Source of the DNA: Erysipelotrichaceae bacterium
GTDB lineage: Bacteria > Bacillota_I > Bacilli_A > Erysipelotrichales > Erysipelotrichaceae
Length of the DNA stretch: 64,000 nucleotides
Assembly (NCBI GenBank): GCA_031272515.1
Contig: JAISTR010000042.1
Span: 1 to 64,000, forward strand
Reading direction: 5' to 3'
Of the stretch, positions 8,639 through 16,865 are shown piece by piece. Made by a program: the position numbers and the translations under genes. The stretch's first letter is position 1; each line of letters opens with the position of its first letter. Under the pieces are notes generated by a model. It was not told the DNA's origin. It searched no databases and worked only from the letters and a program-made list of their open reading frames with translations.

Positions 8639-9739
8639 TTATTTTTTCCGTATGGCCTCCAAATCTGCCGTGAGCAGAACTGTAAACGTTTCATATTGAT
8701 AGCTGTCCCAATGATGCTCGGGGACATTTTGGTCATAGATCCATAAAAGGTCCACCTTGATTCCCTGGCTTTGCAATTCCTGAATTTTACTATCAGCAAA
8801 ATCAAAGCCGGCAATCACAAAGTAGGTGGAAAGCACATCAGCGATTCCCGCATCGGTGGTAATGACCGAGACCGAGCGGCAGGTGGTAACCGGCATCAGG
8901 GTGCGCGGGTCAATGATGTGCTGCTGGCGGTCGCCATTGACATCGACATAGTAGCGCTCGTAGTCGCCGCTGGTGGCAATAGACATCGATTCACCAAAGG
9001 CAAAGACCCCGATGTTGGCTCCCAGGTTGTCCGGTACGGTAATGCCGACATTCCAGCTCGACCCGTCGGCTTTGGTGTGGATGGTACGCACATTGCCGCC
9101 GCCGTTGACAAAACCGTACAAAACACCCGCTTCCTCCAGTTTCAAGGAAATCTGCTCAACCGCATAGCCCTTGGCAACAGCACCGACATCCAGGGAAGCC
9201 TCGAAAATGTCCAGGTAGACGGTGGAGGCGGCTTCATCGATGATGACATGCGACCAGCCGGTATACTGGTAGGCTTCCTCTAAAGCTTCCATATTCGGCA
9301 AGGGCCCGCCTTCGCCATCCTCATTGAGCAGGATGCCCGCTTCGCGGTAGCTGTGCCAGATCTTCAGTACCGGTCCCATGGTGATGTCACAAAACCCTTC
9401 GGTCTTGTCATACCACTCTTTCGCAAACAGCAGTAAATCGATGATCTTCCTATCGACCACCACCGGCTGTATGCCGGCATTGTCATTGATGGTTTTTAAA
9501 TTATTGAGACCGCTGTAGTCGTGGTAGATATCATACAGCCGGTGGTAGCTGGTCAACTCCTCTTTGAAAAGCGCAAACCACGCATCAAATTCCTCTTGGG
9601 AGTGCGCATAAGCGGAGAAGGTAAAGACCGTGTCAAAACTGTCCTGCAGGGTCGCATTTTTGTATAGTTCCAGTTTTTGTTTCTGACAGCCGGAGCATAC
9701 GCTAAAACAAAGCAAAACAACCAGTAGTTTTTTTAACAT
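8639..9739 (-). CDS. apbE: FAD:protein FMN transferase (ApbE), lipoprotein
   Basis: An extracytoplasmic flavinyltransferase that attaches FMN to Thr/Ser in SGAT-type motifs of partners such as RnfD and RnfG. A lipoprotein signal ends at a Cys in a VCSGC context, so the enzyme is anchored outside the membrane. Key motifs are DVGAVAKGYAVE, the flavin-binding region SIATSGDYERY, and HIIDPRT; the C-terminal TTDAGIADVLST carries metal-binding Asp. I start at ATG 9739, because AAGGA lies eight bases upstream; a GTG at 9757 would add six residues and overlaps the upstream stop. It lies divergent to the rnf operon, whose products are the likely substrates. Confidence 0.92.
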   Translation of the reverse strand: MLKKLLVVLLCFSVCSGCQKQKLELYKNATLQDSFDTVFTFSAYAHSQEEFDAWFALFKEELTSYHRLYDIYHDYSGLNNLKTINDNAGIQPVVVDRKIIDLLLFAKEWYDKTEGFCDITMGPVLKIWHSYREAGILLNEDGEGGPLPNMEALEEAYQYTGWSHVIIDEAASTVYLDIFEASLDVGAVAKGYAVEQISLKLEEAGVLYGFVNGGGNVRTIHTKADGSSWNVGITVPDNLGANIGVFAFGESMSIATSGDYERYYVDVNGDRQQHIIDPRTLMPVTTCRSVSVITTDAGIADVLSTYFVIAGFDFADSKIQELQSQGIKVDLLWIYDQNVPEHHWDSYQYETFTVLLTADLEAIRKK

Positions 9740-9753
9740 AGATGCGATCCTTA

Positions 9754-10164
9754 TCACACTTCGTATCCGGTTTTTTCTTTCAGGGTATTGATGACTGACT
9801 GCGCTTCTTCCTGTTCCACCGCATTCTTTTTAAAGCCGCGCAGAAAGACAGTCAGACGGTAGAACACCGGTTTTTCACCTTCACTGACCTGCATGCTGAT
9901 GACGGTGTTGAAGAGCACCTTCTTAATCAGCAAGCTGGAGATATTCGCAAAGGGAATACAGATTTTCCGCTTTACTTTCGGATGGAAGATATACCAGCCG
10001 ATGCATTCATACAGGATCAGGTTATTGGCGTCGGTGGTGACCATCGTATATATCTGATAGGACGAATTGAAAGCAATCCGCTGACTGGCGGTCAGAAAGG
10101 GTTTATCAAACCCCGGTCCTTCAATTTTTTCTATGGCTTGACGATCGCGATCATGTTGAGTCAT
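9754..10164 (-). CDS. Hypothetical PH-like protein, paralogue 1
   Basis: A 136-residue soluble protein of unknown function. It consists mostly of beta strands with a C-terminal helix, resembling small bacterial PH-like domains. The N-terminus (QHDRDRQAIEKIEGPGFDKP) parallels that of the neighbour at 10292-10699 (HQRDRNAVTRFEKVEFDLP), and both share a DxxxLILYE core, so they are tandem paralogues. The ribosome site AGGAGGA precedes the ATG. The stop nearly abuts the apbE start, so it is likely co-transcribed with apbE and the sulfatase. Confidence 0.65.
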   Translation of the reverse strand: MTQHDRDRQAIEKIEGPGFDKPFLTASQRIAFNSSYQIYTMVTTDANNLILYECIGWYIFHPKVKRKICIPFANISSLLIKKVLFNTVISMQVSEGEKPVFYRLTVFLRGFKKNAVEQEEAQSVINTLKEKTGYEV

Positions 10165-10869: not shown

Positions 10870-12177
10870 ATGTCATTGTTATTAGGACCGATGAAGCAGC
10901 ATCTCGACGGTCATAAGGGCTTGACGGACCACAATGAAATCCTTGCACTCAAGGACGCAAAGCGGGTCTATATCCCGCTGATCAACGGTCAGTCCACCAA
11001 TGTCGAAGTGCTGGTAAAAGAGGGAGATCGGGTCTATGTAGGGACCAAGGTCGCACAGCGGAATGACAGCAGCATCGTGCCGCTTTTTTCCAGTGTGTCG
11101 GGGAAAGTGGTCGGGCAGGAAACCTTCTTGCACGCCATTTTAAAACCGGTGGCCCACCTTGTAATCGAAAATGATTTCAAGTATGAAACCAAGGCTCCAT
11201 TCAAACCGCTGGACTACACCAAGGCCAGTGAGGCAGAGCTGATTGACTTCACCATGAACGCCGGCATCGTTGGCTGCGGCGGCGCAGGATTTCCAACCTA
11301 TGTGAAGTACAAGTTTGCCAAGGATGTGCATACGATTTTAATCAACGGGGTGGAATGCGAACCCTATATCACCGCGGATTACCGCATCATGAATGAAAAG
11401 GGGAAGGAAATGGTCATTGGCATCAAAGCCATGATGAAGATGGCCAAGGCCCCCAAGGCGATCATCGCCATCAAAGCTTCCCACCCGGAACTGATTGCGA
11501 CTGTCAAGAAAGAGATTGAAGGCCATTCGGATATCTCTGTCTTCCCTGTACCGGATGTCTATCCGATGGGCTGGGAAAGAACGGTGGTCTTTCAGGTCTT
11601 CAAGAAACGCTATGACAAGCTGCCCGGTGAGGTTGGCGTGGTTGTCAACAATGTGACCACCGCCATCGCTTTGGGCACGGCTTTAGAGACCGGCATGCCG
11701 ATTACCGAAAAAATTGTGACCGTATCCGGTGACGGGGTGAAAGAGCCTCACAATGTCATGGTTCCGGTCGGGGTGCGGGTGAGTGAACTGGTCGCAAAGT
11801 GCGGCGGTTATGCCAGCGAGGACGTCCTGCTTTGTGCCGGCGGTCCGATGATGGGCAAGACCCTGACCAACGACCAGTTTGTGATTACACCTTATTCCAA
11901 TGCCATCACGGTGTTGATTACCAGACCAATCGACAAGGTTGCCTGCCTGCGCTGCGGACGCTGCTCTGACAACTGTCCCAGTTCGCTGCAACCGGTACGC
12001 ATCAATCAGTTTGAGGAAACCAAGAACTATGAAATGCTCAAGCGGCTGGCAGTCAACGACTGCATCGAGTGCGGCATGTGCTCCTATATCTGCCCAAGCA
12101 AGATCGATGTGACGGAAGGCATCCGGCGTGCCAAGCGTCTGGTTCAAACCAGAGCCGCTGCGGAGGTGAAGAAATGA
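10870..12177 (+). CDS. rnfC: Rnf complex subunit RnfC
   Basis: Peripheral subunit of the ion-translocating ferredoxin:NAD oxidoreductase, thought to bind NAD(H) and FMN on the cytoplasmic side. The 435-residue length fits the compact Gram-positive type. The glycine-rich GCGGAGFPT (136-143) and NGVECEPY (160-166) are typical of RnfC/NuoF-like folds. Two 4Fe-4S motifs are complete: Cys359/362/365/369 and Cys398/401/404/408. The start has AAAGG five to nine bases upstream, and the extended -10 promoter lies about 40 bases before. It is first in the operon and ends four bases inside the ribosome-site region of rnfD. Confidence 0.95.
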   Translation: MSLLLGPMKQHLDGHKGLTDHNEILALKDAKRVYIPLINGQSTNVEVLVKEGDRVYVGTKVAQRNDSSIVPLFSSVSGKVVGQETFLHAILKPVAHLVIENDFKYETKAPFKPLDYTKASEAELIDFTMNAGIVGCGGAGFPTYVKYKFAKDVHTILINGVECEPYITADYRIMNEKGKEMVIGIKAMMKMAKAPKAIIAIKASHPELIATVKKEIEGHSDISVFPVPDVYPMGWERTVVFQVFKKRYDKLPGEVGVVVNNVTTAIALGTALETGMPITEKIVTVSGDGVKEPHNVMVPVGVRVSELVAKCGGYASEDVLLCAGGPMMGKTLTNDQFVITPYSNAITVLITRPIDKVACLRCGRCSDNCPSSLQPVRINQFEETKNYEMLKRLAVNDCIECGMCSYICPSKIDVTEGIRRAKRLVQTRAAAEVKK

Positions 12178-13679
12178 AATTTACCTATCGTCCCAGCCCC
12201 AACTACCGTCAGCCTCGAAAAACCAGGGGCATCATGATGGAGCTGACCATCGGCTTGTTGGCGGTGGCTGCGTTTTCCTGTTTCTATTACTTTACCAAAA
12301 CCGATTACGGACTGCGGGTGATTGAACTGCTGTTTGTCTCGGTGCTGTTTTGTGTTTTGACCGAAGCGGTCTGGGCTTATTTCACCAAGGAGAAGGTCCT
12401 GGAGTACCTGAAGCATTCCTTCCCCTGGGTGACCGGTATCATCCTGGCCCTGATTCTGCCCATCAACGCGACCCTTTACGCCACGGCAATCTCCGCCGTT
12501 TTGGCCATCTTCTTTGGCAAGCTGGTGTTTGGCGGTTTCGGACAGAACGTCTTCAACCCGGCCGGGGTCGGACGGGCCTTCTTTATGACCAGCTTCGCCA
12601 CCTCGGTGGCGGCCGATGTGGTCAGTTCCCCAACCCCGATTACCACGATGAGCACCCTGGGCTGGGTCATCAAGGATTCCAGTCTTCTGAGCTCGACCCT
12701 GAGCCAGTTTGGCGGTTTGACCAACCTGTTTGTCGGGTTCTATCCCGGCTCCATCGGTGAGACCAGCGCCCTGGTCATTCTGATTGTCGGTGCCGTCTTA
12801 ATCTGGCGCAAGGTCATTGACTGGCGCATTCCGGTGGTCTATGTCGGCTGTATCTTTATCTTTACCGCTTTGGTTGGTGCGATGCAGGGCATGGGTCTAT
12901 GGTATCCGCTCTATCATGTGTTTACCGGCGGTGTGCTGTTTGGTGCCGTGTTCATGTTAACTGATCCGGTCACCAATCCCACGGCTCCCGGCGCAAGGGT
13001 TGTCTTTGGCATCGGGGCAGCCATCATTACTTTATTAATCCGCTTTCTGGGAAACCTCCCCGAGGGCGTGGTGTTTTCCATCCTGATCATGAACATGATC
13101 AACCCGATGATTGAAGCCTGGATGGATGGCAAGCAAATCCATACCATCAAGAAATCGATGGTGACCTCATCGATCCTGGTGGTTTTGGCTTTGGCCTTAT
13201 TTACTGGTGTAGGCTTGAGCTTAAAACCGAAGGCGGCCGAAGCAGAAGTGCCAGAGGAACCGGAAGAACCGGCCCTGGTATTCGGGCAGCCAATCGCCTT
13301 GAATTCCACCAGCCTGGACCCCTATAAGGGTGAGATTACCGGCACAAGTGAGAGCGGCAGCTATGTCGTCTACACCGTGAAGGTGAAAGGCTATGGCTTA
13401 GTGGATGATGACGGTTCGCATGGCTTGAGTTATGACTACAATATCTTTGACATTACGGTCGACCCGGCTGCCAAGACTTTGGTATCGATTGCGTATCAGC
13501 AGTTTGGCGATACCAAAAACATCGGCAGCAAGACCGAAAATGAGGATTACTACAAAGTCTTTGAGGGCTTGGATTTGACCAATTACGACAACATGGTCGA
13601 CACGGTCTCCGGGGCAACCTGTACTTCCAAGTCAATGATCAGTGCCGTCCGCATTGTCATGGACGCGCTGGGAGAGTAG
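12174..13679 (+). CDS. rnfD: RnfD with fused C-terminal FMN-binding domain
   Basis: Membrane subunit of the Rnf complex carrying a covalent FMN. Residues about 1-350 match RnfD with multiple helices and the FMN-site region DVVSSPTP (Asp148 to Pro155, likely flavinylated Thr154; a Pro replaces the usual Ala before Thr). Unusually, after a charged E/P-rich linker (354-368), residues about 370-501 add an FMN-binding domain ending in DTVSGATCTS, with Thr482 as the predicted flavin site. RnfD proteins I know end near residue 320-350. The added domain closely resembles the second domain of RnfG. The start at 12174 follows GGAGGTGAAGAA and overlaps the rnfC stop by four bases. Confidence 0.92.
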   Translation: MKFTYRPSPNYRQPRKTRGIMMELTIGLLAVAAFSCFYYFTKTDYGLRVIELLFVSVLFCVLTEAVWAYFTKEKVLEYLKHSFPWVTGIILALILPINATLYATAISAVLAIFFGKLVFGGFGQNVFNPAGVGRAFFMTSFATSVAADVVSSPTPITTMSTLGWVIKDSSLLSSTLSQFGGLTNLFVGFYPGSIGETSALVILIVGAVLIWRKVIDWRIPVVYVGCIFIFTALVGAMQGMGLWYPLYHVFTGGVLFGAVFMLTDPVTNPTAPGARVVFGIGAAIITLLIRFLGNLPEGVVFSILIMNMINPMIEAWMDGKQIHTIKKSMVTSSILVVLALALFTGVGLSLKPKAAEAEVPEEPEEPALVFGQPIALNSTSLDPYKGEITGTSESGSYVVYTVKVKGYGLVDDDGSHGLSYDYNIFDITVDPAAKTLVSIAYQQFGDTKNIGSKTENEDYYKVFEGLDLTNYDNMVDTVSGATCTSKSMISAVRIVMDALGE

Positions 13680-13688
13680 GTGAGGGCA

Positions 13689-14627
13689 ATGAAGAAAAAC
13701 AGAACCTTCTATTTAGCCGGCTTTTTGGCTGTCATCTCGATGGTGGCCGGACTGCTGCTTTGGTTTGTCAATGATTTGACCTACGACCGCATTCAGGAAG
13801 GCAAGATTGCCGCCGAGAAGAGCAACCTGGAGAAAATTTTCCCCGGAGCAAGTTTTGCGGAAGTCGACTTCACGGATGACACCGGGTTAATCGAAAAGGT
13901 CTTTGAAGCCAAGGATACCGGCTATATCTATAAGATTAATGTCAAGGGCTACAAGGATACCATCACCTTCATGCTGGGCATCAAGAATTCAGGAGAGATG
14001 ACCGGTTATGAAGTGCTGAGCATCAGCGATACCCCGGGCATCGGCATGCAGGTGGCGGAGGATGCCTTCAAGAACTCCATCATTGGCAAAGCCTCCAACG
14101 ACGGCATCGCTACCATCTCCGGAGCGACCATCTCCTCCTCCGCAGTCATCAACGGCATCAAGGCCGCCCAGGCGGATTTCAATGCCCGCTTTGGAATCAG
14201 CGGCGAGGGCAAAGAACCGGAACCGGAACCCTCAGTGGTTCTGGGAGCCAAGGTCGCCATCAATGATGCCTCCATCGACCGCTACAAAGGGGAAATCACC
14301 GAAAACACCGACACTGAATATGTGGTGAAGGTGAAGGGGTATGGCCTGGTGGATGATGATGGCTCCCACGGCCTTTCCTACGATTACAACATCATTCGCG
14401 TGACGATTGACCCAGAAACCAATACCATCACCGCCGTCGCTTTTGACAGCTTCGGGGATACCTCCGGTATCGGTTCCAAGGCGAATGTACCGGAATATTT
14501 GGATTTGTTCAAAGGCCTGTCCTTGGATGATACAAGTGTCGAAGTGGATACTGTATCCGGTGCCACCTGCACCTCCAAGTCCATCATCAGTGCCATCCGC
14601 ATCGTCATGGATGCGGCCGGGAAGTAG
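13689..14627 (+). CDS. rnfG: RnfG with two tandem FMN-binding domains
   Basis: Extracytoplasmic flavoprotein subunit of Rnf. One N-terminal helix (about 8-30) anchors it. The first FMN-binding domain ends in ISGATISSS (predicted flavin on Thr147). An E/P-rich linker (about 170-182) is followed by a second domain with VSGATCTS (Thr293). Ordinary RnfG has one domain of about 200 residues, so this 312-residue protein is extended. The second domain shares long identical runs with the RnfD tail, including KVKGYGLVDDDGSHGLSYDY. The start ATG at 13689 has GGTGAGG three bases upstream; the GTG at 13680 is less likely. Confidence 0.93.
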   Translation: MKKNRTFYLAGFLAVISMVAGLLLWFVNDLTYDRIQEGKIAAEKSNLEKIFPGASFAEVDFTDDTGLIEKVFEAKDTGYIYKINVKGYKDTITFMLGIKNSGEMTGYEVLSISDTPGIGMQVAEDAFKNSIIGKASNDGIATISGATISSSAVINGIKAAQADFNARFGISGEGKEPEPEPSVVLGAKVAINDASIDRYKGEITENTDTEYVVKVKGYGLVDDDGSHGLSYDYNIIRVTIDPETNTITAVAFDSFGDTSGIGSKANVPEYLDLFKGLSLDDTSVEVDTVSGATCTSKSIISAIRIVMDAAGK

Positions 14628-14636
14628 GTGAACAGC

Positions 14637-15278
14637 ATGAAAAAACTATCGATTTTTACAGACGGACTGATCAAGGAAAACCCGGTACTGGTGCAGTATC
14701 TGGGCATGTGTTCCGCCCTGGCCATTACCATCTCCCTCAACAATGCCCTGGGCATGGGTGTGACGGTTATTTTGGTCCTGTTGATTTCCAATATTGTGAT
14801 TTCGCTTTTGCGCAAGGTCATCCCGGATGAAATCCGGATTCCGGTCTTCATCGTGGTCATTGCGACCCTGGTGAAGTGCGCGGAGCTTTTGCTGGCGGCT
14901 TATACGCCATCCCTGTCCACCGCCCTGGGGGTCTTTATTCCCCTGATTGTGGTCAACTGCATCATTTTGGGCCGGGCGGAAGCCTTCGCCTCGAAAAACT
15001 CGGTGGGGGCTTCGATTCTGGATGCCCTGGGCATGGGCCTTGGTTATACCGCAGCGCTGACGGTGATGTCAGTGCTTCGCCAGTTTCTTTCCACCGGGAC
15101 CATCAACCTGCTCAATCCCTTCACCAATGACCTGATTTTTGAATTCGGGGTATCGGAAGGGTTTGCGGCCAAGTATGCGATTACCATCTTCAAGGAACCG
15201 GTTGGCGCGTTCTTGATGCTGGCGCTGATTGCGGCCTTTGTGACCTGGCTTAAGAGCCGGGGAAAGGAGAAGAAATAG
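14637..15278 (+). CDS. rnfE: Rnf complex subunit RnfE
   Basis: A 213-residue membrane subunit homologous to RnfA and NqrD, with about six helices. In the RnfA/RnfE pair, cysteines from both subunits are thought to hold a 2Fe-2S cluster within the membrane. Here they are Cys25 (YLGMCSALA) and Cys108 (LIVVNCIILG). The start ATG at 14637 is preceded by AGGTGAACAGC; the GTG at 14628 is an alternative. It is tightly spaced with rnfG before and rnfA after, so it is translated as part of the operon. Confidence 0.95.
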   Translation: MKKLSIFTDGLIKENPVLVQYLGMCSALAITISLNNALGMGVTVILVLLISNIVISLLRKVIPDEIRIPVFIVVIATLVKCAELLLAAYTPSLSTALGVFIPLIVVNCIILGRAEAFASKNSVGASILDALGMGLGYTAALTVMSVLRQFLSTGTINLLNPFTNDLIFEFGVSEGFAAKYAITIFKEPVGAFLMLALIAAFVTWLKSRGKEKK

Positions 15279-15851
15279 ATGAACCTGATCACCTTATTTT
15301 TGTCGGCCTTGTTGATCAACAACGTCGTCCTCAATCAGTTCTTGGGCATCTGTCCTTTCCTGGGCGTTTCCCGCAACAAGAGTTCCGCCATCGGCATGAG
15401 CTTTGCGGTCATGTTTGTGATTCTGGGCTCCAGCATTCTGACCTATTTTTTGTACCACTTTGTCTTGGTACCGCTGAAACTTGAGTTCATGGACCTGATT
15501 ACCTTCATTCTGGTGGTTGCCTGCTTCGTACAGTTTGTGGAGATGTATCTCAAGAAGATGCTGCCGTCCCTGTACCGTTCGCTGGGCATCTACCTGCCTT
15601 TGATTACCACCAACTGCGTGGTGCTCTATGTCTGTTTGGGCAATATCAGCGCCAACTACAACTTCATTGAGATGCTGGTCTATTCCATTGCTGTGCCGCT
15701 GGGCTTTGCATTGATTTTGATCATCTTCTCCAACATCCGCGAGCGCATGGAAAACGCGAAAATCCCGGCACCGCTGCGCGGCAATCCGGCTGCCCTGATC
15801 ATTGCCGCGATGATGGCTCTGGCCTTCTCCGGACTGGCCGGACTGGTGTAG
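15279..15851 (+). CDS. rnfA: Rnf complex subunit RnfA
   Basis: A 190-residue membrane subunit with about six helices, paired with RnfE. The typical N-terminal NNVVLNQFLGICPFLGVS contains Cys25, and PLITTNCVVLY contains Cys113; these are the expected 2Fe-2S ligands on its side. The length is standard. Its start lies directly after the rnfE stop with GGAAAGGAG upstream. The stop is followed after three bases by the ATG of a 59-residue Cys-rich protein. Confidence 0.95.
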   Translation: MNLITLFLSALLINNVVLNQFLGICPFLGVSRNKSSAIGMSFAVMFVILGSSILTYFLYHFVLVPLKLEFMDLITFILVVACFVQFVEMYLKKMLPSLYRSLGIYLPLITTNCVVLYVCLGNISANYNFIEMLVYSIAVPLGFALILIIFSNIRERMENAKIPAPLRGNPAALIIAAMMALAFSGLAGLV

Positions 15852-15854
15852 TGC

Positions 15855-16034
15855 ATGCAAATTGTATATGCCGTCCTCTTTCTGGCAGTGCTGGGCGGTT
15901 TGTTTGCGGGTTTGACTTATCTGAATCAAAAAACACCGCGGCCAGAGGGCTGCGAGAATCTGGTAGCGGAGTGCGGCGGCTGCGGCATACGCAGCTGTCC
16001 ACAGCATCCGGACTACAAAAAGGAGGAGAGCTGA
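15855..16034 (+). CDS. Small single-helix Cys-rich protein between rnfA and rnfB
   Basis: A 59-residue frame between rnfA and rnfB. Residues about 3-22 form one hydrophobic helix. The rest carries Cys33, Cys40, Cys43 and Cys48; the ECGGCGIRSC segment has the CX2CX4C spacing of the first Fe-S motif of RnfB (NCGSCGFTGC in the next gene). It ends in a basic/acidic tail. It starts three bases after rnfA stops, with no strong ribosome site of its own, and it ends two bases before rnfB starts, so coupled translation is likely. Its function is unknown; a membrane-attached iron-sulfur carrier for this Rnf is a reasonable guess. Confidence 0.72.
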   Translation: MQIVYAVLFLAVLGGLFAGLTYLNQKTPRPEGCENLVAECGGCGIRSCPQHPDYKKEES

Positions 16035-16035
16035 T

Positions 16036-16347
16036 ATGGGATTTCTGGTTCCTGTAACAATGATGCTGGTTTTGGGCGGCAGCCTGGGACTGGTCTTGGG
16101 TTTTGCGGCACAAGCGTTCCATGTGGAAGTGGATGAGCGTTTGGCCAAGGTCACCGGCATGCTGCCGGGGCTCAATTGCGGTTCCTGCGGCTTTACCGGC
16201 TGTGCCGGACTGGCGCAGGCATTAGTGGAGGGCAAGGTGGCGAAAGTCGGTGCCTGCCGTCCCTGCAAGCCCGATATCCGGGCTCAGATTGCCGATTACC
16301 TCAATGAAAATGCTCCGGAGGGAGCAGCGAAAGTCACAGCAGATTAA
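16036..16347 (+). CDS. rnfB: Truncated RnfB (Fes-domain only)
   Basis: A 103-residue protein homologous to the N-terminal part of RnfB only: a membrane helix (about 5-28) and the Fes 4Fe-4S motif Cys48, Cys51, Cys56, Cys74. Typical RnfB proteins are some 270-330 residues and continue with two or more ferredoxin clusters that take electrons from ferredoxin. Here the frame ends after a short helical tail and a terminator follows at once, so the truncation is genuine rather than a frameshift. AGGAGGAG precedes the ATG. It is the last gene of the operon. Confidence 0.88.
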   Translation: MGFLVPVTMMLVLGGSLGLVLGFAAQAFHVEVDERLAKVTGMLPGLNCGSCGFTGCAGLAQALVEGKVAKVGACRPCKPDIRAQIADYLNENAPEGAAKVTAD

Positions 16348-16369
16348 AAGGCGTTTGTACGCCTTTTTT
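16346..16369 (+). terminator. Terminator of the rnf operon
   Basis: Stem AAAGGCG with CGCC plus a TTTTTT run. It overlaps the rnfB stop codon, showing that no ferredoxin domain follows. Confidence 0.9.
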
Positions 16370-16382
16370 CTTAGGAGGAAAA

Positions 16383-16865
16383 ATGCGAAGAAAAGAATAT
16401 GAGAAAGACCTGGAATTTGGCTTGGAAATACTCAAACGCTCTGGCCATATGGCCTTGGCTACCTTCGGTAGGGATGGCTATCCTTATGTCATCTTTGTCT
16501 CCCCGGTGTACTATCAGGATAAAATCTACTTCCACTGTGCCATGGAAGGGGAGAAGATTGATAACTTAAGGAAAAACCCGAAGGTCTGCTTGAGCTGTTA
16601 CATAGATGAGGTGCTTAAACCCGAGTTTATCACCCTGCATTTTGACAGCCTGGTCATTCGCGGGACTGCCCGCGAGATTATTGATGAGAAGAGGAAAGAT
16701 GAAATCCTGCTGGTCTTATGCGAGAAATGGTTTCCCGATCATTTGGAAGCGGCGAAAAAAACGATAGCCGGTGAAGGCAAGCAGGTCAAGCCTGCCGGCT
16801 TCACCGGCATCTGGGAAATCACCATCGATGCACTTTCCTGCAAAAGCAAGCGTCATTTTTGGTAA
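16383..16865 (+). CDS. Pyridoxamine 5'-phosphate oxidase-like flavin protein
   Basis: A 160-residue single-domain protein of the split-barrel PNPOx-like/NimA-like class. Seen features are GHMALATFGRDGYPYVIFVS near the N-terminus, the barrel strand KIYFHCAMEGEKIDNLRKNP, and VCLSCYIDE. Related proteins bind FMN or F420 and reduce small molecules; the substrate is unknown. AGGAGG precedes the ATG. It follows the rnf terminator by only 13 bases, so read-through could couple it to the rnf operon. Its 3' end overlaps the convergent lipoprotein gene by 13 bases. Confidence 0.8.
   Translation: MRRKEYEKDLEFGLEILKRSGHMALATFGRDGYPYVIFVSPVYYQDKIYFHCAMEGEKIDNLRKNPKVCLSCYIDEVLKPEFITLHFDSLVIRGTAREIIDEKRKDEILLVLCEKWFPDHLEAAKKTIAGEGKQVKPAGFTGIWEITIDALSCKSKRHFW

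Follow-up and report, generated by a model that had tools for sequence, protein, structure and literature searches.

The window analyzed here is a stretch of 64,000 nucleotides from an Erysipelotrichaceae bacterium (GenBank assembly GCA_031272515.1, contig JAISTR010000042.1, positions 1 to 64,000). It carries one rnf operon on the forward strand (10870-16347), in which rnfC, rnfD, rnfG, rnfE, rnfA, an unannotated small gene named rnfX here, and rnfB follow one another, with apbE divergent upstream. The features are given below, each with the basis of its assignment in parentheses.

8639..9757, minus strand: apbE, flavin transferase, divergent from the rnf operon (profiles)
10870..12177, plus strand: rnfC, 435 aa, NADH/FMN module with both [4Fe-4S] motifs (profiles, ligand check)
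12174..13679, plus strand: rnfD, 501 aa, with an extra C-terminal FMN_bind domain (profiles, ligand check)
13680..14627, plus strand: rnfG, 315 aa, two FMN_bind domains with two SGAT flavinylation motifs (profiles, ligand check)
14628..15278, plus strand: rnfE, 216 aa, [2Fe-2S] ligands Cys28 and Cys111 (profiles, ligand check)
15279..15851, plus strand: rnfA, 190 aa, [2Fe-2S] ligands Cys25 and Cys113 (profiles, ligand check)
15855..16034, plus strand: rnfX, 59 aa, a transmembrane helix followed by N-x2-T-x2-P-x2-C-x6-C-x2-C-x4-C (open reading frame, profile)
16021..16026, plus strand: Shine-Dalgarno sequence AGGAGG of rnfB, within the 3' end of rnfX (sequence)
16036..16347, plus strand: minimal rnfB, N-terminal transmembrane helix, one PF04060 [4Fe-4S] domain and a short tail (open reading frame, profiles, model)
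~16346..16367, plus strand: intrinsic terminator hairpin overlapping the TAA stop of rnfB and followed by a T run (-13 kcal/mol, z = -3.0)

The rnf operon and its genome

Membership of the locus in the Rnf family is borne out by RnfC, RnfD, RnfG, RnfE and RnfA, all of which are present with their cofactor ligands: C25 and C113 of RnfA, C28 and C111 of RnfE, eight cysteines of RnfC, the flavinylation threonine of RnfG and the threonine of RnfD are intact. The same core ligands are almost fully conserved among relatives, which differ widely in how many FMN domains RnfD and RnfG carry.

The genome (2.13 Mb, 97% complete) encodes RnfB and RnfC once each and a single RnfA/RnfE pair, and no second RnfB or second Rnf was found in it. 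Its other PF04060 protein (C54:130915) is no RnfB and adjoins HydABC-like hydrogenase genes. A HydABC-like hydrogenase cluster of the same genome (L004, 6567-14516) includes a PF04060-containing, ferredoxin-type protein of 396 aa. Pyruvate:ferredoxin oxidoreductase (PFOR) is also encoded.

A minimal RnfB

RnfB of the window is 103 aa long. A transmembrane helix is predicted at residues 4-27 (mean pLDDT 91 in the structure model), and the PF04060 match covers residues 43-76 (41.2 bits, cut-off 23) with the cluster cysteines Cys48/51/56/74; an extra Cys77 is not conserved. An earlier note on this DNA had described just such a protein, and the open reading frame, profile and model all agree with it. 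Likewise upheld is its claim that the protein ends before the polyferredoxin part: no polyferredoxin domain (2-7 [4Fe-4S] clusters) was found in the rnfB frame, which stops at residue 103, or in the rnf operon, and the next gene (16383-16865) encodes a pyridoxamine-oxidase-like protein by profile search. The terminator that the note placed over the rnfB stop is present as listed above; this hairpin is not among the terminators given by a consensus scanner.

The TIGR01944 rnfB profile reaches 61.8 bits, aligning at its positions 8-91 of 190 alone, against a cut-off of 68.7. The window protein thus falls short of the score and lacks the polyferredoxin, the two properties that define the curated RnfB family, and the curated profile misses the gene because the polyferredoxin part is absent. 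It does have the N-terminal helix and a B8-type iron-sulfur domain with its four cysteines, aligns with residues 1-101 of the solved RnfBs 7zc6, 9eri and 8ahx, and has Acetobacterium woodii RnfB as the top structural match of its model. Judged by homology and gene position, it is an RnfB, in a shortened variant.

In A. woodii, residues 30-100 of RnfB form the mobile B8 domain, from which the [2Fe-2S] cluster of RnfA/E receives its electrons; growth and activity are lost when its cysteines are mutated (PMC11889175). The window RnfB is exactly helix plus B8, i.e. the shuttle part of RnfB. Since it corresponds to the B8 region of A. woodii, the essential shuttle is kept and the docking arm alone is gone.

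Short RnfB across Bacilli

A gene about one third the length of a standard Firmicutes rnfB could be a pseudogene, a truncation or an assembly error, and the earlier note had named an error at position 16340 as a possible refutation. At this place in the operon, around 40 of 60 relatives, spread over two families, have RnfB frames that stay open for 92-163 aa (71 aa in one that runs into a contig end), which also sustains the note's view of an intact gene with no frameshift or lost part. Nine relatives have RnfBs of 260-298 aa, and the remainder have no match or unrelated PF04060 proteins of at least 369 aa. Similar length, the same cysteines and the tail motif are common to more than 100 distinct operons, and the ribosome-binding site and terminator of the window gene are intact. 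This conservation and these expression signals refute the degenerate or artefactual origin, and an assembly error is excluded along with it.

Whole-genome searches covered the window's phylum (Bacillota), where a short-RnfB profile matched 125/392 genomes; true RnfBs among the matches were nearly all short, with four long ones. For a comparison of operons, loci with rnfA, rnfE and rnfB were deduplicated, some genomes having been present in two collections beforehand, and 142 short and 9 long RnfBs remained among 151 distinct operons. The conservation of length that the note had wished to see in related genomes is therefore there, although such counts across relatives are not independent owing to common descent. 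In a tree of RnfA plus RnfE, the nine long-RnfB operons form one clan (support 0.98) apart from every short one, so the split between short and long RnfB is old. A short RnfB of ~90-150 aa is the rule in the sampled GTDB Bacilli genomes and is a lineage trait.

Several variants were seen alongside. RnfBs of 184-192 aa with two tandem B8-type iron-sulfur domains and no polyferredoxin occur in one family, f9 (L090, L113, L114). Another Rnf type (L220, L222, L224, L226) has a divergent RnfC of 404-407 aa and an RnfG of 496-669 aa with several FMN domains, together with a short RnfB and no RnfX. A Bacilli-type rnfX and short rnfB also occur in metagenome-assembled genomes titled 'Leptotrichiaceae bacterium' (L176, L206), which are possibly misnamed or mis-binned.

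RnfX, a small protein encoded between RnfA and RnfB

The lineage trait and the small gene next to rnfB had both been overlooked in the earlier note. The rnfX gene starts 3 nt past the rnfA stop, and its 3' end contains the rnfB ribosome-binding site. Its product has the invariant residues N24, T27, P30, C33, C40, C43 and C48. No Pfam or NCBIfam family covering RnfX was found, and no counterpart was matched among solved structures. The RnfX profile matches 177/395 genomes of the class; of the 80 carriers with a name, almost all belong to the Erysipelotrichaceae or elsewhere in the Erysipelotrichales, among them Holdemania, Holdemanella biformis, Faecalicoccus, Allobaculum and Solobacterium.

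Among the first relatives, RnfX was present in 36/36 short-RnfB operons with rnfA assembled versus 0/9 long ones. Wider sampling found it in 123 of the 142 distinct short-RnfB operons and absent from 19, with the long ones still at 0/9. Because of these 19 operons RnfX is not strictly required, and the strict rule that a short RnfB needs RnfX was rejected. RnfX-like orphan proteins also occur far from rnf genes, often without the first cysteine, in recurring neighbourhoods that differ by lineage (L087, L088, L097, L103, L105, L108-L111, L115, L121, L123).

RnfX probably either helps to assemble a cluster or serves as an auxiliary subunit for electron input. As the latter, its four cysteines would hold an iron-sulfur cluster at the membrane surface, and electrons would pass from ferredoxin through RnfX to B8, the small protein standing in for the polyferredoxin. 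Accompanying most short RnfBs and no long one, RnfX rather than B8 could in this way take over docking. In favour of such a split input module are the distribution across operons and the position of RnfX, which within rnf operons lies between rnfA and rnfB. The four cysteines are intact in 133/140 members, and K/R follows the helix in 147/152, so the cysteine end is probably cytoplasmic, like B8. Yet the first cysteine is missing in six members, the structure model combines a confident helix with a loose cysteine tail (pLDDT ~58 in the cysteine region), 19 short-RnfB operons do without RnfX, and the orphan relatives sit far from any rnf gene. The association with short RnfB is moreover confounded by descent, the long operons being a separate clan. 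We regard an input role for RnfX as unlikely.

Alternatively, RnfX may serve maturation outside electron transfer and, by analogy with NqrM, supply iron to the [2Fe-2S] cluster buried in RnfA/E. In general anatomy it resembles NqrM, a maturation protein that is likewise small, bound to the membrane and encoded together with the complex it serves (PMC12174285, PMC6209661), and rnfX lies directly after rnfA. Weak matches to the FeoB-associated cysteine-rich family PF12669 were obtained for 13/30 RnfX members (best E 0.0013, below the cut-off); the window's own RnfX had none. Patchy absence also agrees with an accessory role that a paralogue could take over, and several genomes have orphan copies. 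Against this, similarity to NqrM was not detectable: the PF04400 profile gave no match at E<=1 in 30 RnfX members and none in the window's own genome, for which reason identity of RnfX with NqrM was rejected. RnfX is also missing from long-RnfB operons, though the same [2Fe-2S] cluster is needed there. A maturation role is thus conceivable at somewhat less than even odds, and ferredoxin could dock directly on B8 under it as well. Between the two roles, that of assembly factor is slightly preferred over that of auxiliary input site, because RnfX is patchily absent and orphan relatives exist.

Route of electron entry

In the A. woodii complex, the distal clusters of the RnfB polyferredoxin are taken to be the place where ferredoxin docks (PMC11889175), and a 2025 review gives this C-terminal polyferredoxin, with 2-7 [4Fe-4S] clusters in solved structures, as the ferredoxin acceptor (PMC12174285). 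Where electrons enter a complex without it has to be judged from sequence, gene content and the published structures of other Rnf complexes, from which all statements on electron flow below are inferred.

The missing domain might be a separate protein that is encoded elsewhere and joins the complex, and the earlier note had made such a gene its other possible refutation. Several 4Fe-4S proteins of the genome do match the C-terminal positions of RnfB. The best of them, however, encoded on a different contig, is an ordinary soluble 2[4Fe-4S] ferredoxin of 57 aa that stands on its own and is the expected donor, and none of these proteins is linked to rnf. Within 3 kb, another 4Fe-4S dicluster open reading frame was absent at 161/162 short-rnfB loci and present at 1. 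A detached ferredoxin domain is accordingly very improbable, and the 57-aa protein is likely itself the soluble donor to RnfB.

The complex might instead have abandoned ferredoxin, with electrons from NADH (via RnfC) or another carrier leaving by way of the extra FMN domains of RnfD and RnfG for acceptors outside the cell. The known ferredoxin dock is indeed lost, the window RnfD and RnfG do carry extra FMN_bind domains, and a role in supplying external acceptors has been proposed for multi-flavinylated RnfG (PMC8238504). Several short-RnfB relatives nevertheless have an RnfD of 364-380 aa and an RnfG of ~170 aa with no second FMN motif, so extra FMN domains are not a general cause of RnfB shortening. 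B8 and all RnfC cluster ligands are still conserved, and ferredoxin and PFOR are encoded. We consider this route quite unlikely. Ferredoxin is assumed as the electron donor from gene content, toward which the HydABC-like hydrogenase genes, PFOR and the free ferredoxin were counted.

The flank of the fourth cluster cysteine sets short RnfBs apart. It is followed by K/R in 117/137 of them, with a mean charge of +1.6 over 8 residues, and by PxGG-like residues with charge 0 in 7/7 long and 3/3 solved RnfBs, i.e. a basic C-(K/R)-P in the short form versus C-PVGG in the long. A basic flank would suit docking of an acidic ferredoxin at B8 itself, as far as sequence allows us to infer; basic flank and short length reflect common descent and are not independent observations. 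No co-adaptation was seen in RnfC: its C-terminal tail, the part in contact with RnfB in A. woodii, has kept its length.

Clusters of the order rnfDGEAB with a short RnfB and no rnfC nearby were found at L221, L223 and L225, where the short RnfB is the sole cytoplasmic iron-sulfur subunit. Two of them have the order cydA-cydB-rnfD-rnfG-rnfE-rnfA-rnfB with an RnfB of 99 aa (L221, 2500-7951; L225, 830-6253), and the encoding of a cytochrome bd oxidase with the Rnf core there hints at electron flow from ferredoxin to oxygen.

Our preferred reading, to which we assign a probability of roughly 60%, is that electrons enter a lineage-specific Rnf through the product of the window's rnfB gene, an RnfB cut to the helix and mobile B8, and that soluble ferredoxin reduces B8 directly. 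Direct reduction best explains the data because the core is intact, the arm is not encoded nearby, a donor is encoded, the flank is basic and rnfC-less loci exist. A reduced soluble 2[4Fe-4S] ferredoxin would dock on B8 and reduce its one cluster; B8 would swing to RnfA/E and reduce the membrane [2Fe-2S] cluster; and electrons would move on through RnfG and RnfD to RnfC and NAD+, with ions pumped, as in standard Rnf. Encoded immediately ahead of RnfB and so made before it, RnfX would be an accessory small protein with its cysteine motif probably on the cytoplasmic side, acting either in the assembly of the cluster of RnfA/E (or of B8) or as auxiliary input site. Of the earlier note's interpretation, the intact minimal RnfB stands, and of its two alternatives, docking of ferredoxin on the first cluster or another partner carrying the electrons, the former has the better support and would be the likelier route.

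For the Rnf of anaerobic Bacilli at large, we lean modestly towards a one-cluster input in which ferredoxin reduces B8 directly, polyferredoxin is dispensable and RnfX takes part in the complex or its assembly. The polyferredoxin given in reviews as the acceptor is absent from most Rnf-bearing members of a whole bacterial class. The carriers are anaerobic gut and sediment bacteria, among them the gut genera Holdemania, Holdemanella and Faecalicoccus and relatives of Solobacterium. A natural minimal complex makes the clusters that the pump needs directly testable and offers a compact system for structural work on the gating of the [2Fe-2S] cluster by B8, and an unannotated small-protein family is added to a bioenergetic operon. 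In the openly available literature searched, no description was found of an RnfB with one cluster across a whole class and a small gene beside it, nor was biochemistry of any short-RnfB complex.

Comparison with known systems

The iron-sulfur domain of the corrinoid iron-sulfur protein is the same domain (PF04060) as that of RnfB, and the closest two structures superpose on the RnfB model with an rmsd of 1.2-1.3. Its cluster takes electrons for corrinoid reactivation. Unlike RnfB, the corrinoid protein is not membrane-anchored and belongs to no ion pump.

NqrM (DUF539, PF04400), which acts in Na+-NQR maturation, resembles RnfX in being small, membrane-bound and encoded with its complex, but no profile similarity was found between them, and RnfX is encoded between rnfA and rnfB. 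The FeoB-associated cysteine-rich membrane protein (PF12669) shares with RnfX the small size and the helix followed by a cysteine-rich tail; RnfX differs in its place in rnf operons, its specific N-x2-T-x2-P-x2-C motif and scores below the family cut-off.

The flavinylated Rnf variants of Meheust et al. 2021 (PMC8238504) share the multi-flavinylated RnfG. In the part of that paper available, the survey is keyed on the presence of KEGG RnfB, and neither RnfB length nor a small extra gene is mentioned. Multi-flavinylated RnfG is thus already known.

Standard Rnf (A. woodii, Clostridium tetanomorphum, Azotobacter vinelandii) shares with the window operon the gene order CDGEA..B, which the long-RnfB relatives have too, the full set of core cofactor ligands, the RnfB membrane helix and the B8 iron-sulfur domain. 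Its RnfB continues with 2-7 further [4Fe-4S] clusters and has the C-PVGG flank, whereas that of the window ends after B8 with one cluster and short RnfBs have the basic C-(K/R)-P. To the standard set the window operon adds rnfX and the extra FMN_bind domains on RnfD and RnfG.
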